Below, piece by piece: positions 6,101 through 17,200 of a stretch of 23,174 bases of DNA. The translations under genes and the position numbers were made by a program. Position 1 is the first letter of the stretch. Each line of letters starts with the position of its first letter. The stretch is from IMG/VR virus record IMGVR_UViG_3300037010_000554, positions 1 through 23,174 of that record; one strand, given 5' to 3'. Under the pieces are notes generated by a model that made no database searches, was not told the DNA's origin, and saw only the letters and a program-made list of their open reading frames with translations. This DNA is from a virus.

Positions 6101-7819
6101 CTAGAATACCGTACTACCGGGTTTACTAGTTTCTTTATCATCTAGATCACCAGTCCAGATCATACCATCCTCATCCACTACACTATGACCTTCATATTGT
6201 ATTTCACCACTACCAGCTATAATATCTATAAGACCTAATTGACTAACCACATCACAGAAGTCATCATGATCACTGAACCCTGTATGTGTAGCACCTCTCA
6301 ATTGCTTTAGTGCTTCCTTCATATCAGGTGAGTCTTTCAGCTCATTAGGGAAATATATCTTACCATTCTGGAACTGTGGTACCATATACCTGAACCTCTC
6401 ATGTTTACTACCAGCATTCCTACTCCTGATACCCTCCTTACTGCCTGTAGCACCCTTCTGCCTTGCGAATGTGAAGTACCTATTAGTAACCATCATCTTC
6501 TGCTTCAGGGCGTGCATATGCAGCAGCTGCTGACCATCTACCTCAATACCTGTTTCAACTACTCTACCACCTTTGCCCCACGACATAACCAACCTAAACA
6601 ACGAATTGTGTTGATCATCGATATCCATCTTCTGTAGTACTAAATCTAGTAGATAGTAATCCCAGTTGCTACTAACAGCCCATACACCTATCCCGCAGAA
6701 GTCACTGCTAGCAGCACTGGTAGTAGTTAAGTCAGTAGTAATATACAAGCTATATCCACCTAAATTTGGTAACAGTAGTTTCCTGTCATACCACTGAATC
6801 AAGTTATCAGGAACTAATCTGTCCTCCTCATTACTAACCCTAAGCATCAACTCCTGGTTAAACGACCTAGTAGAACCTGTAGCCACAGCATCTAGGTACC
6901 TATCCATAACACTGGTGTAGTCATGCATATCAGGCCACAAACCTACGAAGTTTTCCTTATGCATACCTTCATATATCTCTTTGCATATCGGTGTAACCAG
7001 CGGTGTAAAACCGCCACTCTCTACCATCATATATACAGGATCTCTCTTATGGAATGGTGTGTTAACTAGTACGAACTGTGTATTCTTAGCTCTCATGGCA
7101 TTCTTAGCATCACTAGTTAGAGCAGTTATCACGTTATGCATGATAGTATCAGAGTAAGCATCAGCCTCGTTCTTAATCGTATCATCACCGATAATCAATC
7201 CATAGCGGTCACTAGTCACCGGGTTTCGTGAACCTGAACGAATACCACCACCCTGCACACCCTTGAACTTGATAAGCATGTGCCTCTTCTCAATAGGCTC
7301 AGTACCCTTCCTAACCAGTTCCACTTCACTCTCTGTACTCCTAATCGTCTCGAACCACTGCTTAGCAAACAGACTCTTCTCCAGCACACCACCCATCAAC
7401 TTAGCCTGATCCCTAGCACCACCTTGTTGACTATCTGATAGAATCAGAATATGACTAAGTGGACCAGTAGCTGGAAGACTACCTCTTATAGCAGCCACAA
7501 TCGGGTAGAACAACGTAGTAATAGTAGATTTAGCGGAACCGCGTGTAGAGATAATACCTACCTGCCTTGGGTTAATCGTAATCAAGTCTTGTATATCTTT
7601 CGGGTACGGGAACTGTTCTTTAGTTAGGTTACCATACAGCATATCTATGATGAAGTAATGGAACTTAGGGTTGGGTACTTCGAAGTCCTCTCCATAGAAC
7701 ACCCTAATCAAGTTAAAGAACTCTAGTGCATCAGTAGACGGTGTATAGTTACTAAACGTCAAATCTACATTATCTAGTGCATAGTCAATATCAAATCTCT
7801 CACGCTTCACTGTAGTCAC
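6101..7819 (-). CDS. Terminase large subunit
   Basis: The DNA-packaging motor, up to 572 aa. ATPase domain: Walker A-like STRGSAKST at 91-99 and Walker B LIIGDD at 208-213. C-terminal RNase H-like nuclease: first acidic residue in TTDLTT (Asp363), Glu in RVVETGIEVDG (Glu422 or Glu426) and the last in DHDDFCD (517-523). It would cut concatemers and drive DNA into the prohead. The GTG at 7819 gives the numbering used here, but GGAGG touches it; the GTG at 7810, three codons later, is better spaced and may be the true start. The 5' end overlaps the upstream gene by about 20 nt. Placement followed by an adaptor-like gene matches N4 gp68. Confidence 0.93.
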   Translation of the reverse strand: MTTVKRERFDIDYALDNVDLTFSNYTPSTDALEFFNLIRVFYGEDFEVPNPKFHYFIIDMLYGNLTKEQFPYPKDIQDLITINPRQVGIISTRGSAKSTITTLFYPIVAAIRGSLPATGPLSHILILSDSQQGGARDQAKLMGGVLEKSLFAKQWFETIRSTESEVELVRKGTEPIEKRHMLIKFKGVQGGGIRSGSRNPVTSDRYGLIIGDDTIKNEADAYSDTIMHNVITALTSDAKNAMRAKNTQFVLVNTPFHKRDPVYMMVESGGFTPLVTPICKEIYEGMHKENFVGLWPDMHDYTSVMDRYLDAVATGSTRSFNQELMLRVSNEEDRLVPDNLIQWYDRKLLLPNLGGYSLYITTDLTTTSAASSDFCGIGVWAVSSNWDYYLLDLVLQKMDIDDQHNSLFRLVMSWGKGGRVVETGIEVDGQQLLHMHALKQKMMVTNRYFTFARQKGATGSKEGIRSRNAGSKHERFRYMVPQFQNGKIYFPNELKDSPDMKEALKQLRGATHTGFSDHDDFCDVVSQLGLIDIIAGSGEIQYEGHSVVDEDGMIWTGDLDDKETSKPGSTVF

Positions 7820-11072: not shown

Positions 11073-11327
11073 GTCACCCTCCTAGGTTATGCTTATATTA
11101 TACAGGAGGGGAGGGTCTCATGTGTAGCATTTTTTCACTAGGTAGGATTTCATTTCTATCCGCTCTCGCCCTTATCCGACACCATCCCCCCCTATAGTAA
11201 CCATCCCAGAGTCCCTTTTTTCCACACCCAGTCATAGCAGTAGCCGTCTCGTACTGTCTGTATGCTCTGACCAGTCTATGCTGCGGTATCAACTTCGGTA
11301 CTGTTAATGTCCAAGGAGGACACCATC
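11073..11327. other. Divergent gene-free region between late-type and early genes
   Basis: About 255 bp between the leftward endonuclease and the first rightward early gene. It holds a purine-rich stretch at 11101-11117, a C-run near 11186-11192, one TCCACAC repeat at 11221-11227 followed by an inverted repeat CAGTA...TACTG (11238-11256), and a GCTCTGACCAG 11-mer at 11264-11274 that recurs at 11532-11542. It must contain the first early promoter. I could not identify an N4-type vRNAP promoter hairpin with certainty. A 64-codon minus-strand reading frame here looks non-coding. Confidence 0.6.
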
Positions 11328-11531
11328 ATGGCAATGCGCAACACCCTTAGTGATAGGGACAGATTCGTATCCTCTTACCGCTCTGTCAATGACACAGTCG
11401 TGTTTGACTGTGTTATGTCTGATGACGTTACTATCCGTAACACTAAACAGACTCTAACTTATAAAACCGCACCGAGTACGGTGCGTGGTAATAAACGTTC
11501 TGATGCAGAGTTACGCCGGTCATTCCGGTAA
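11328..11531 (+). CDS. Small early protein, unknown
   Basis: A 67-aa basic protein and the first gene of the rightward early block. The ATG at 11328 is chosen because AAGGAGGA lies eight bases upstream; an ATG at 11307 is upstream of that ribosome site. The sequence is Arg/Ser/Thr-rich (MAMRNTLSDRDRFVSSYRSV near the start; KRSDAELRRSFR at the end). No family recognised. First-expressed small basic phage proteins are often host-takeover factors, but this is inference from position. Confidence 0.72.
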   Translation: MAMRNTLSDRDRFVSSYRSVNDTVVFDCVMSDDVTIRNTKQTLTYKTAPSTVRGNKRSDAELRRSFR

Positions 11532-11583
11532 GCTCTGACCAGACCATGTTTGGGTCAGCTGTGATACCCATTTAAAATCACAG
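11532..11583 (+). promoter_or_regulatory. Recurrent two-hairpin intergenic element, copy A
   Basis: Directly after the stop codon. Hairpin 1 is GACC...GGTC at 11542-11556 with an ATGTTTG loop. Hairpin 2 is CTGTGAT (11559-11565) / ATCACAG (11577-11583) with an 11-nt loop ACCCATTTAAA. The same design occurs at 11933-11977, 12380-12403 and 13045-13087. Possible roles: RNA processing site, attenuator, or a promoter for the phage RNA polymerase, since N4 RNAPII promoters contain an A/T-TTTA core like the one in the loop. Confidence 0.75.
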
Positions 11584-11614
11584 CAATTGTTCATTCTTGT
11601 TAAGGAGTTATATC

Positions 11615-11920
11615 ATGATGAACACACAATTTTCTAATGGTACTCATACATGTGGTACGTACACTACAGGCACCGTCAACAAAGATGGCTACGTCAAAGG
11701 CTGGAGCGTCAGTGATGGCTGTCGTGGTTTTAGTCACAATGTGTTTTCAGGGTTTTCTGTGAAGACCTTGAACAATCGTACTGAGAATGAGCTTGCGCAA
11801 AGCCGTCTGTGGCATCATTCTTATTTATCTGATCCTACCATTGCGGAGATGGTAAGACACTTAAGAGAGCGTGGTCTTCGTAATTTTGCGGTTGAGGAGG
11901 GTCTAATCACTCTCTTCTAA
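11615..11920 (+). CDS. Small early protein, unknown
   Basis: A 101-aa protein. The ATG at 11615 follows AAGGAG at seven bases. The N-terminal half is Gly/Thr/Ser-rich with GTHTCGTYTTGTVNKDGYVKG and a second Cys in SDGCRGFSH; the C-terminal half is helical (DPTIAEMVRHLRERGLRNFAVEEG). Two Cys/His clusters might bind a metal but no zinc-finger spacing is clear. Flanked on both sides by copies of the recurrent two-hairpin element, so it forms its own unit. Confidence 0.72.
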   Translation: MMNTQFSNGTHTCGTYTTGTVNKDGYVKGWSVSDGCRGFSHNVFSGFSVKTLNNRTENELAQSRLWHHSYLSDPTIAEMVRHLRERGLRNFAVEEGLITLF

Positions 11921-11932
11921 GCGCCCTAACCA

Positions 11933-11977
11933 ACCCATGTTTTCGGGTCTAACTGTGCCACCCATTTAAAGGCACAG
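11933..11977 (+). promoter_or_regulatory. Recurrent two-hairpin intergenic element, copy B
   Basis: Hairpin 1: ACCC (11933-11936) / GGGT (11945-11948) with loop ATGTTTTC. Hairpin 2: CTGTGCC (11953-11959) / GGCACAG (11971-11977) with the loop ACCCATTTAAA, identical to copy A. The inner two stem pairs differ from copy A on both arms (AT/AT becomes CC/GG), a compensatory change. Confidence 0.8.
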
Positions 11978-12002
11978 TAAATTGTTCGTAATGGAGTAAT
12001 GT

Positions 12003-12332
12003 ATGAACAAACAAAAGTACGGTATATTTTCAGCACTCGGTGAAGTGCTGACAGTCATTGGTAAATCCTCGTATGCTGTTGGTCGTTTGGCTGACGCGGC
12101 TATCGAGGGATCGGAGATGGCAGTTGAGGCTGCTGTTTCCGCTCGTTCAGGTACCCTGTTAGACAAGCTGGTTGAGGCCGGTTTGCTAACAGCAGGCTCA
12201 AAGGAGGCATTAGTGCTTCTGTCTATCAAGGATCCTGTTAAGTACGAGGCTGTGCTTAATAGGGTTCTTACCAAACTCTCTGATGATGCAGAGAGCTTAG
12301 TCAGTGTTAAGACAGATACACCAGCACCATAA
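12003..12332 (+). CDS. Small early protein, unknown
   Basis: A 109-aa protein, Ala/Leu/Ser-rich and largely helical (GRLADAAIEGSEMAVEAAVS, then KLVEAGLLTAGSKEALVLLS), with a disordered Thr/Pro end (TDTPAP). No membrane segment or known motif. The start is preceded by ATGGAG. Its amphipathic helices suggest a protein-binding role; function unknown. A dense minus-strand reading frame covering the same bases is a shadow. Confidence 0.72.
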   Translation: MNKQKYGIFSALGEVLTVIGKSSYAVGRLADAAIEGSEMAVEAAVSARSGTLLDKLVEAGLLTAGSKEALVLLSIKDPVKYEAVLNRVLTKLSDDAESLVSVKTDTPAP

Positions 12333-12341
12333 CCCATCGTC

Positions 12342-12403
12342 CTGTGCATGACGTTAAACTGCACAAGAATTAGGGTAAGCCACTCACCTATATTAAAGAG
12401 TGG
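12342..12403 (+). promoter_or_regulatory. Recurrent two-hairpin intergenic element, copy D (divergent)
   Basis: First hairpin TGTGCA / TGCACA (about 12343-12365). Second hairpin CCACTC (12380-12385) / GAGTGG (12398-12403) with loop ACCTATATTAAA, a variant of the ACCCATTTAAA loop of copies A and B but with a wholly different stem sequence. The conserved loop with unrelated, complementary stems argues that structure and loop are what is kept. Confidence 0.65.
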
Positions 12404-12422
12404 TAATAGTTGGAGAGCAGAA

Positions 12423-12689
12423 ATGTTCACTCAAAATCAAGTAGCCCAATAGGCTAAACATGTACTAAATGACTCTTGGTTATACCAATTAGCTTCAGGG
12501 GAGCTAATGCTTCCCTGTGAGGTTAAAGACGACTGGTCGCTGTTTGATTGGAGGTCAGACGAGTACCTAAGGACTCGTTTGTTGTATACAACCAATAAGA
12601 AGGTTGTATATCGCGTGAAGTATAGCAAGGGTACAGTAGATATATCTATACCTTTATTAAAAATACGATTAATACCTTACCCTGCATAA
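12423..12689 (+). pseudogene. Early gene interrupted by an in-frame amber codon
   Basis: A ribosome site (TTGGAGAG) and an ATG at 12423 open a frame that reads nine codons (MFTQNQVAQ), meets TAG at 12450-12452, then stays open to TAA at 12687-12689 (88 codons in all, counting the amber and the stop). The rest reads AKHVLNDSWLYQLASGEL and onward to IRLIPYPA with normal composition, so the frame is clearly coding. Either the gene carries a nonsense mutation, the amber is read through, or translation restarts at ATG 12507, which has GGGGAG close upstream and gives 60 residues. TAG serves as a normal stop for other genes here (for example at 18274 and 20559), so the code is not globally reassigned. 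Confidence 0.65.
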
Positions 12690-12728
12690 ATCTTAAGACC
12701 TAAGCAAGTCTATAAACTGCTAACAACA

Positions 12729-12757
12729 CCTTACCTTCGGGTAGGGTTTTATTTTTT
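12729..12757 (+). terminator. Intrinsic terminator
   Basis: Stem CCTTACC (12729-12735) with GGTAGGG (12740-12746), TTCG tetraloop, followed by TTTTATTTTTT. It closes the first early transcription unit after the amber-interrupted gene. Confidence 0.9.
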
Positions 12758-12759
12758 CT

Positions 12760-12993
12760 TCCACACGTTACTCAGCTACCTTTACTGACACTAGTAAGAA
12801 TACCTACTCAACCATTAGCGTTAGGTAGGTAGTTAATTTTTCCACACAGAAGACAGGTACTAACATCTCAATCAGCATCCAACCATTCAGTCCGTACTAA
12901 TCGAACTAGCGTATTACCGAGTGCTTGGCTTTCTCCACACTCCTTCGATAGACTGTTCTACTCCCTTAGCAAGTCGAAGGTTGGCATCCACAC
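12760..12993 (+). repeat. Cluster of four TCCACAC repeats (a fifth at 11221-11227)
   Basis: TCCACAC at 12760-12766, 12841-12847, 12934-12940 and 12987-12993, each after a T-rich or TTGGC stretch, all in the same orientation. With the fifth copy at 11221 every copy lies in a gene-free region on the early side. Two (11221 and 12841) read TTTTCCACA, which fits a relaxed DnaA box (TTWTNCACA); the others fit with one or two mismatches. They may instead be early promoter cores. Confidence 0.7.
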
Positions 12994-13044
12994 CATCCGA
13001 TAGACTGTCTACTCAGCTAAATGCTACTACCGTATGCCTTGTAC

Positions 13045-13087
13045 ATCCTATGCTTTGGTATAGCTGTGGTACCAATTTAAATCCACA
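13045..13087 (+). promoter_or_regulatory. Recurrent two-hairpin intergenic element, copy C
   Basis: ATCCTATGCTTTGGTAT, related to hairpin 1 of copies A and B, followed by TGTGG (13065-13069) / CCACA (13083-13087) with the loop TACCAATTTAAAT, close to ACCCATTTAAA. It ends the gene-free region and precedes the gene at 13137. Confidence 0.65.
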
Positions 13088-13136
13088 ACAGATAAACAAA
13101 CCTTTTCTCAATTCTTAAAGTAACCTAGGAGGTTAT

Positions 13137-13529
13137 ATGAAATACAAAGTGTTTACATCAAGTGGTTTACAGTACTTCATCAGTACAGATATTCTTTCAG
13201 GATATAACCAAGAACACTTCTCTAAGGAGTTAGGCTCCTTTGATGAAGTACACATCAGTAACTCTTGCCCTGATAAACTAGCCCAATTAGGGTTTAGTCA
13301 CTCAGTAGAGCTTGACCTACGATGTGTCAAAGAAACTACAAACAGTAGCTGGAATGAAACTAGACTTAAGAGGTTAGTAGGGTATCTTGATAGGTACTCT
13401 GATACATTCAGTGAAGCTATTCGTGTGCATAACCTAATGGTTGTGTCTAACGTAATACCAACCAAAGAATTCTTTTCACACTACATCGAGATGTTGGATT
13501 TCTTAGGTAGTAAAATGAAAGGTTGCTAA
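13137..13529 (+). CDS. Early protein, unknown
   Basis: A 130-aa protein with strong ribosome site CTAGGAGG seven bases or so before ATG. Starts MKYKVFTSSGLQYFIST, with an N-terminal beta-like part and a helical C-terminal half (RLKRLVGYLDRYSDTFSEAIR; KEFFSHYIEMLDFLGSKMKG). Mixed charge, no membrane segment, no motif recognised. Follows the early control region and so heads a second early unit. Confidence 0.75.
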   Translation: MKYKVFTSSGLQYFISTDILSGYNQEHFSKELGSFDEVHISNSCPDKLAQLGFSHSVELDLRCVKETTNSSWNETRLKRLVGYLDRYSDTFSEAIRVHNLMVVSNVIPTKEFFSHYIEMLDFLGSKMKGC

Positions 13530-13546
13530 TTGCAAGCCTTTGATCA

Positions 13547-13571
13547 ATCCATGATTTGGGCAATCTTGCCC
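13547..13571 (+). promoter_or_regulatory. Intergenic hairpin related to the recurrent element (copy E, partial)
   Basis: ATCCATGATTTGGGC resembles hairpin 1 of copies A and B, and GGGCA (13558-13562) / TGCCC (13567-13571) form a tight stem. The ACCCATTTAAA-loop hairpin is absent, so this is a degenerate or half element. Confidence 0.5.
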
Positions 13572-15061: not shown

Positions 15062-17200
15062 ATGACAACTGATATCCGCACTGAAATTCTTTCTGGTTAC
15101 TTACCTTTCCCTAAGTTCGACGCATTTGTCGAAAAATATGGGGTTGAGGCTATGACTGTAGCTGACAATATGTGGAACGCATTATGGCGTAACTACATGC
15201 ATAAAGGCGACAAGGGTACGATTTCGTTACCATTATGGGCTACCAAGTTTGGTGACCCTGTAGTGTTTAACCGTATCCTTAAGTCATTGTCACTGCAAGG
15301 TTGGGTAACTACCTCAGCAGACCCTAAAACTAACTTCGCTACTGCTATCATGAACATAGATATGCTTCTATCGTTTGTGTCAGTACAAGAACTAGCTCAC
15401 CTACGTGCTCAGTCTAAAGTCCGCCATTACTTACCTAAGTTCAAACAGTCTACTGCTTCTGATCTAGTTAAGTTAAATGGTAAGACTACTAAGACTGGCT
15501 TAGTTCGTGAAGGATTTGCTAAGGCAGCTAATACTCAATACTATTATGATGTTGAGTACTTAACTAAGTATAAAGAAGCTATCAGCCTGAATGTTATCAA
15601 AGGCATGACAAAAGTCCGTAATATTTGGACTGAATTAGTAATGGACGAAGCGTCTTTCGATAATCTGTCACTAGCTATCGTGCAAAACTTAATTGATCAC
15701 CCTCAGATCATTAACCAAGGAGGCAATAAGTCTGACTCACGTGGTCGTGCTATCAAGAACAGTCTATCATGGGTATTCAACCCTATCGGCTATAAGGATG
15801 CACGTGCATTGATCACTATCCCGTTAGGTCTACGCAACCTAGCTACTGAAGAGGGTGCTACCGCTATCTACTTATTCATTGCTGAATTAGCTGGTGCAAA
15901 AGTACCTTCAGTACAGGCTAAGATTGATGCTGGTCGTTCTCACTATGAGACACGCTACACGCATGATCTAGACCTAGACAGTGAGGAAGATCGCAAGCAC
16001 CTGTATGAGAATATCTGGTTAGAGCGTCTGTATGATGATCTAGATGGTTACTATAGCAACGATACTTATTACTGGTCTGTACCTGTAGAGTTAGATGCGA
16101 GTGCGTTAGCCTAATTGGCGCACTATAAACCTTGTGAACTCAGGGAAAGCTAAGTCCTAACGGATATGCTAATCCTGATCTAAGCCGAGTAATCGGAAAG
16201 AGCAGAGACTATCGAAAAGTATGAGTAATCATGAACTTAGTAGAGTAGGTACCAAGTGGTATCGAAGCGCAAGGCACTAGAAATAGTGATGATATAGTCC
16301 GATCCTGCATGAAAATGTAGGCAGTTGTATTACCAATAATCATGTGATATATATTAAGAAATCACTATGTTGGTAAATTAACGAAGGTAGCTTAACGAGC
16401 TGCCTTGAACTAAAGCAATGCTCCAATACATTGGTGTCCTGCTAAACGACCGTCGCTTATGTGAAATGACAAACCTGGTTGGTGAAGAGTTATCTGATCC
16501 TTGGTCTGATAGCGTATTGTCTCGTGAGCATGTTAAGAAAGCATTTACTCCTATGCTCTACGGTTCTGGTAAGTCTGCTACCCAACTGTGGGACAAGAAC
16601 AACCTGACATGGGGTGTAGAGGATATGGTTCGTGCAGAGACTCTCATTCAGTCAGGCGCATTCGCTGTAGCTAGCAAGTTCAAAGAGTTCGTAATCGATC
16701 ACGTCAAACCTAAAGAAGATATGACTGTTATGATTGGTGACGATGTATTCGACATCAAGTGTAACCGTTACCATCATTTAGGTGACAAGACTACACGCTA
16801 CTCTATCTATGACACTACCACTGACCGTATTCGTACCATCGAAAACACCAGTCGTCGTGAAGTGGCTGACCTTAAAGCGTTCAAGCGTTACTTCTTAACT
16901 CTCCTAGTGCACAATCTAGATTCACAGGTAGCTGACCGTGTATCTGGTGCTGTATACGACAATTACGAATGGTGTATTGATATTCATGACGCGTTCATCG
17001 TGTCACCTGAAGCTGCTCTATTCACTCGTAACGAGTATGCAAATCAACTAGAACACCTGCACACTAACCGTAAAGCGATACTTGGAGGTTACTTCGTATC
17101 TATCGGTATCGGTGCAGAAGCACAGAAAGCTTGGAACGATCTTCAAACTGTAATCGAGCCTATGGACACATTTGAATGTGGGCTAATGGCACTTAAATAA
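15062..17200 (+). CDS. Single-subunit (T7/N4-type) RNA polymerase, split by a group I intron: join 15062-16106 and 16416-17200
   Basis: Spliced product 609 aa. It transcribes phage middle genes in N4-type phages. Visible motifs: DSRGR at 225-229 (DxxGR), followed by NPIGYKDARALITIPLG like the T7 NPQGNDMTKGLLTLAKG; motif A PVELDASASMLQYIG with catalytic Asp345; motif B R385-x3-K389-x7-Y397-G398, the same spacing as T7 R627, K631, Y639, G640; H514 in LLVHNLDSQ; motif C CIDIHDAF with H539 and D540. Without splicing the frame ends after 350 residues just past motif A. Exon 2 contains ATG 16418 but no ribosome site, so it is not a separate gene. The ribosome site is ACGGGAG before ATG 15062. Confidence 0.95.
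16107..16415 (+). ncRNA. Group I self-splicing intron in the RNA polymerase gene
   Basis: 309 nt, no ORF. Splice sites follow from pairing: exon 1 end AGUGCGU (16100-16106) pairs with GCGCACU (16118-16124), with U16106-G18 (16118) as the conserved U-G; exon 2 start CAAU (16416-16419) pairs with AUUG (16114-16117) as P10; the last intron base is G16415. Core: P4 UCAGG (16140-16144) / CCUGA (16174-16178); P7 GACUA (16207-16211) / UAGUC (16295-16299), within the typical CAGAGACUA and GAUAUAGUCC sequences. GAAA-capped hairpins at 16275-16288 and 16304-16321, and an extended stem at about 16330-16378. The joined codons give DASASMLQ, exactly continuing motif A. Confidence 0.96.

Follow-up and report, generated by a model that had tools for sequence, protein, structure and literature searches.

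The window, the complete IMG/VR record of 23,174 bases, carries a terminase gene on the minus strand (6101–7819), after which come early genes reading rightward and a pair of genes like those of N4 RNAPII. This layout marks the phage as a distant N4-like virus. A DNA similarity search with the window found no match among known phages, and a family search with the early genes also gave no matches. Searches for relatives took as queries the early proteins, the terminase and the two RNAP halves separately. For the RNAP2 gene, the nearest named relative is Alteromonas phage AD45-P1, with 44.5% identity over 164 residues; its gene order is that of the window and it has an N4 gp50-like (virion polymerase) region. 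RNAP2 alignment scans of viral contigs gave a group of relatives at 40–52% identity, and the terminase search gave two close relatives (L005 and L006), both of which end short of the early-leader region. The RNAPII-like gene is interrupted beside the DASA motif by a group I intron at 16075–16321 (Rfam RF00028, 74.6 bits; gathering threshold 50), and in AD45-P1 a GIY-YIG gene splits the same gene at a different place. In the early region, no Rfam family reached its gathering threshold.

A gap-free 27-bp motif, TAWGCYYTGACCANNCYATGYTTTGG, is found once in the leader of each of early genes 1, 2, 3, 5 and 6, always on the plus strand. Copy 0 (11261–11287) lies in the leader of gene 1, copy A (11529–11555) begins with the three bases of the gene 1 stop codon, copy B (11920–11946) overlaps the gene 2 stop, copy C (13033–13059) lies in the leader of the second early unit, and copy E (13534–13560) in that of gene 6. 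When each copy is left out in turn, these five score 22.9, 23.5, 16.9, 19.6 and 17.4, respectively, compared with 12.5 for the best non-member position in 46 kb of scored strand. A model built from copies A–C recovers copy 0 (E 0.01) and, more weakly, copy E (E 0.14). All of them lie within 2.3 kb of the start of the early region, ahead of the RNA polymerase genes. The module ends in a G-run, GG(G)T, with an invariant G at column 26. The earlier note had described a two-hairpin element in four copies, A–D. Its first hairpin is not conserved as a hairpin; what is conserved there is the gap-free motif, which is also present at 11261 and 13534 (copies 0 and E, which had been missed) and is absent from copy D. 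A search of the module copies for hairpins of at least 5 bp with a 3-nt loop found none, and only copy E holds one of 4 bp (AATC-CAT-GATT, seen by eye). The fixed spacing, and the conservation of sequence where the copies share no hairpin, suggest that the module is recognized as DNA. No sigma-70 promoter-like site was found at the copies (12 matches overall, compared with 8.8 in shuffles), and a search of bacterial genomes with the module pattern found none. A leader peptide was considered and rejected: the ATG of the module opens frames of 9–10 codons in copies 0, A and B, there is no ribosome site, and the frame is lost in C and E.

The copies share a setting, which is the gene leader and not the gene end. 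Each had been thought to lie directly between a stop codon and the next ribosome site; copy C, however, lies about 340 nt past the last stop (12689) and beyond the intrinsic terminator (12728–12757, plus strand) that closes early unit 1.

Copies A–C continue into a second hairpin, and copy D has this structure without the module. Recomputed coordinates agree with where these four hairpins had been placed: 11558–11584 in A (8 bp, loop ACCCATTTAAA), 11952–11978 in B (8 bp, loop exactly as in A, ACCCATTTAAA), 13065–13087 in C (5 bp, loop ACCAATTTAAA) and 12379–12404 in D (7 bp with one G.U, loop ACCTATATTAAA). The loop starts with ACC and can pair with the terminal GG(G)T of the module, over 5 bp in A, 4 bp in B and 6 bp in C. 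As read from the sequence, copies A, B and C conform to the definition of an H-type pseudoknot, with two interleaved helices and feasible loops (L1 of 2–4 nt and L3 of 6–7 nt). In copy A (11551–11584, plus strand), the predicted S1 joins UGGGU (11551–11555) to ACCCA (11566–11570), S2 joins GCUGUGAU (11558–11565) to AUCACAGC (11577–11584), and L3 is UUUAAA. In copy B (11945–11978, plus strand), S1 would be formed by GGGU (11945–11948) and ACCC (11960–11963), and S2 by ACUGUGCC (11952–11959) and GGCACAGU (11971–11978). In copy C (13055–13087, plus strand), the corresponding strands are UUGGUA (13055–13060) and UACCAA (13070–13075) for S1, and UGUGG (13065–13069) and CCACA (13083–13087) for S2. 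Copy D (12373–12404, plus strand) is an uncertain member; its S2 is GCCACUC (12379–12385) with GAGUGGU (12398–12404), and a possible S1 of 4 bp, including one G.U, pairs GGGU (12373–12376) with ACCU (12386–12389).

Copies 0 and E have the module without this second hairpin or the pseudoknot. The G-run instead enters a weak hairpin in copy 0 (11285–11302, plus strand; GGUAUC-AACUUC-GGUACU, with G.U pairs) and a plain one in copy E (13558–13571, plus strand; GGGCA-AUCU-UGCCC). For copy 0, RNAfold pairs the first Gs with a probability of at least 0.9, although the whole 42-nt fold is not clearly better than shuffles. A terminator scan of the plus strand found none at hairpins A–D, and the hairpin of copy E is terminator-like.

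The stems of the second hairpin change in a compensated manner, as the earlier note had proposed. Pairs were counted from a hand alignment of A, B, C and D. Two or three positions are compensated in A–C with the loop kept: in A, B and C, respectively, pair 6 is A-U, C-G and G-C, and pair 0 is G-C, A-U and G-C; pair 7 is U-A in A and C-G in B and is broken in C, as is pair 1. The stem of copy D has an entirely different sequence and is still paired. The loop adds to this, since its single variable base in A–C (C, C and A) tracks its partner in the G-run (G, G and T), and D adds a U.G; the S1 pair is thus G-C, G-C and U-A in A, B and C, and G.U in D. This S1 evidence is one two-sided change in a single genome. 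The native strand and loop of A, B and C pair over 4–6 bp, compared with 3 bp when those of C are swapped with A or B. The proposal of a selected structure is supported for the second hairpin, and the loop/G-run pairing strengthens it.

We also compared these structures with random expectation. An equally good combination of hairpin and H-type pairing occurs in dinucleotide shuffles at 1/3000 for A, 9/3000 for B, 37/3000 for C and 25/3000 for D, where the best-scoring structure of D is its first hairpin and not the second. Random upstream 13-mers pair equally well at frequencies of 0.0055 (A), 0.017 (B), 0.0044 (C) and 0.037 (D), which may not be multiplied because A–C are homologous. RNAfold z-scores are −2.7 for A, −2.7 for B, −0.5 for C and −3.4 for D, so copy C by itself is thermodynamically unremarkable. 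An alternative upstream pairing of the G-run, of similar energy, is available in A, B and D, which leaves the pseudoknot plausible but not proven. No close relative spans the early region, and the covariation thus rests on copies within one genome. Stop-codon readthrough driven by the pseudoknot was rejected, as the next in-frame stop lies within about 36 nt.

We then compared the early leaders of the relatives. Homologous copies were not found in them, the relatives being distant (RNAP2 at most 52% identical); at 40–52% RNAP2 identity none has the motif or fold of the window, and the module pattern matches them no more often than reversed controls. An unsupervised search of their early noncoding DNA for gap-free repeats found a sequence resembling GTCCTTAYGTRGYGCAATGRKGC at three sites in L009, one directly behind the conserved left-end block before gene 1 and two in tandem, 36 nt apart, past the first terminator. 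A different motif pair, with the same 36-nt spacing and a pair score only at shuffle level, occupies the second position in L027, and AD45-P1 has looser candidate copies at both positions, its own repeats not exceeding shuffles. The two positions correspond to copies 0 and C of the window, and 13 nt of copy C recur exactly, as TATGCTTTGGTAT, in the matching leader of L007. Scored with a matrix built across the relatives, the copies of the window do not stand out from chance (C ranks only ninth), so that a shared function of the two positions is an inference and not demonstrated homology. Some relatives carry a repeated motif of their own at positions equivalent to those of the window, where it may serve the same function. 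Three matches to the patterns were set aside: a site in L006 scoring 18.8 as a module copy is antisense within a coding gene; the stem, loop and pseudoknot pattern, searched in all viral contigs, hit one phage sequence in three contigs, antisense in a coding gene, and was judged to be chance; and an H-type match in L008 falls in a gene.

The left-end block itself, at 11116–11222 of the window, is conserved in the clade (CATGTGGGAAATTTTTAAAATTTTGTA, followed in relatives by a C-run and CCTTTTTT), and its equivalent in AD45-P1, L007 and L009 contains a small 3-nt-loop hairpin. The word TCCACAC occurs five times in early noncoding leaders of the window (11221, 12760, 12841, 12934 and 12987, all on the plus strand), a total count not above shuffles; L009, L027 and AD45-P1 have runs of similar YACACC words behind the first terminator, as seen by eye.

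The explanation we favour, tentatively and with somewhat less than even confidence, is a composite cassette, in which early promoters give transcripts that begin with a paired G-run. In this reading, a single-subunit RNA polymerase of the phage, most likely the one in the virion that makes early transcripts, would use the module as its promoter and initiate at or beside the GG(G). The downstream part would then be the 5′ end of each mRNA, its first bases paired by a pseudoknot or hairpin, which is expected to shield the mRNA from 5′-dependent decay; the fold may also be a putative binding site for translational control, lying 24–49 nt before the start codon. Copying from one leader to another appears to have spread the cassette. 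The promoter half is supported by the position, the strand, the distribution ahead of the polymerase genes and the relatives, and the RNA half by the covarying stem and the loop pairing. Against this explanation, the module is without the 3-nt-loop hairpin used by the N4-type virion polymerase, and the motif is missing from D and the pseudoknot from 0 and E. A more specific proposal, that in this N4-like branch the virion polymerase uses linear promoters in place of DNA hairpins and that each early transcript starts out with its initiating Gs locked in a 5′-terminal pseudoknot or hairpin, we regard as rather unlikely. We found no mapping of early promoter recognition beyond the well-studied N4-like phages. 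A gap-free motif where N4 has hairpin promoters offers concrete sites at which to ask whether hairpin recognition is universal in the polymerase family, and the 5′ structures would make up a compact natural series of variant folds that protect or regulate mRNA.

Parts of this arrangement are familiar from other systems. A T7-type promoter with a 5′ mRNA hairpin has a linear motif that ends in a G-run and a transcript whose 5′ end folds on itself; the cassette is alike in its linear motif, its G-run end and the predicted folding of the transcript 5′ end, with no claim of sequence identity. Promoter and stem-loop motifs, called PeSLs, reportedly lie between early genes of T4-like phages, each consisting of an early sigma-70 promoter and a stem-loop terminator. 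In the window, too, a promoter-like unit with a stem-loop behind it recurs between small early genes; however, the phage is unrelated, nothing in the module looks like a sigma-70 promoter, hairpins A–D lack a terminator-like T-run, and the hairpin loop pairs with the G-run of the motif as a pseudoknot. The N4 virion polymerase promoters P1–P3 (PMC4496689, PMC12633501) are similar in that several left-end copies precede early genes in an N4-like layout, but they consist of a hairpin with a 3-nt loop centred 11 nt before the start, where the window copies have a sequence motif. The leader of T4 gene 32 (PMC3014915) also has an H-type pseudoknot upstream of an A/U-rich ribosome site in a phage mRNA, an operator that the single-strand binding protein of the phage binds, whereas the predicted pseudoknot of the window recurs ahead of several genes, each time behind a conserved DNA motif. 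By defining features, the cassette is neither an N4 hairpin promoter (loop size) nor a PeSL (sigma-70 promoter and terminator). By analogy, its arrangement may be likened to the promoter and stem-loop cassettes of T4-like phages, and its fold to the gene 32 leader.

The composite cassette has to be weighed against readings that keep only part of it. The elements could act in RNA alone, as a pseudoknot or hairpin that binds a phage or host protein and controls translation or stability of the early genes, with the module as part of the RNA and no promoter. The structures of A–C do lie 24–49 nt before the start codons with A/U-rich sequence between, D has the structure without the module, and T4 gene 32 offers a precedent, being controlled by a pseudoknot in its leader from which A+U-rich sequence extends to the ribosome site (PMC3014915). 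We nevertheless consider this unlikely, as what is conserved in the module is its gap-free sequence rather than a structure, copies 0 and E have it without the pseudoknot, and the comparable repeated motifs of relatives are not followed by the fold of the window. A non-functional remnant of duplication, in which leaders were copied along with early genes and the hairpins persist since the copies are recent, would explain the clear homology of the copies and the early genes without family matches, as expected of a shuffling region. It is quite improbable given that the early proteins have no evident mutual similarity by inspection, so that only the leaders were kept alike, and that the stem has drifted through compensated changes around a kept loop.

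DNA-hairpin promoters of the N4 virion polymerase type, with the second hairpin extruded from supercoiled DNA and recognized as DNA, would suit inverted repeats with a kept loop in the early region of an N4-like phage whose clade has the gp50-like region. However, early promoters of N4 and N4-like phages have a stem of 4–7 bp and a 3-nt loop (PMC4496689, PMC3715699), compared with 11 nt in A and B; 0 and E have no such hairpin, and the G.U pairs of D favour RNA on the plus strand, which makes this reading decidedly improbable. Finally, N4 RNAPII (middle) promoters, which the earlier note had suggested from an ATTTA core common to its copies and whose AT-rich stretch from −7 to +2 (PMC4496689) any AT-rich stretch would provide, are very improbable: the loop is AT-rich and RNAPII-like genes lie downstream, but D, 0 and E contain no ATTTA, there is no enrichment of ATTTAAA (5 found, 5.7 expected in the window), the AT core lies inside the structure with the conserved part upstream of it, and the five copies end before the polymerase genes and do not continue into the later, middle genes.

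Further foldings lie near the copies. Early gene 4 (12423–12689) has an in-frame TAG at codon 10; in the terminase gene, TAG is used as a stop. A possible H-type pseudoknot at 12488–12517 encloses a restart ATG (12507) with its ribosome site. The gene at 13137 has its ribosome site within a perfect 6-bp hairpin (13121–13135, TAACCT-AGG-AGGTTA). Among the relatives, L012 has an intergenic H-type pseudoknot at 6883–6916 (TTAGG/CCTAA and TAGTTCA/TGAACTA), which has no Rfam match and lies in an 830-nt noncoding stretch.
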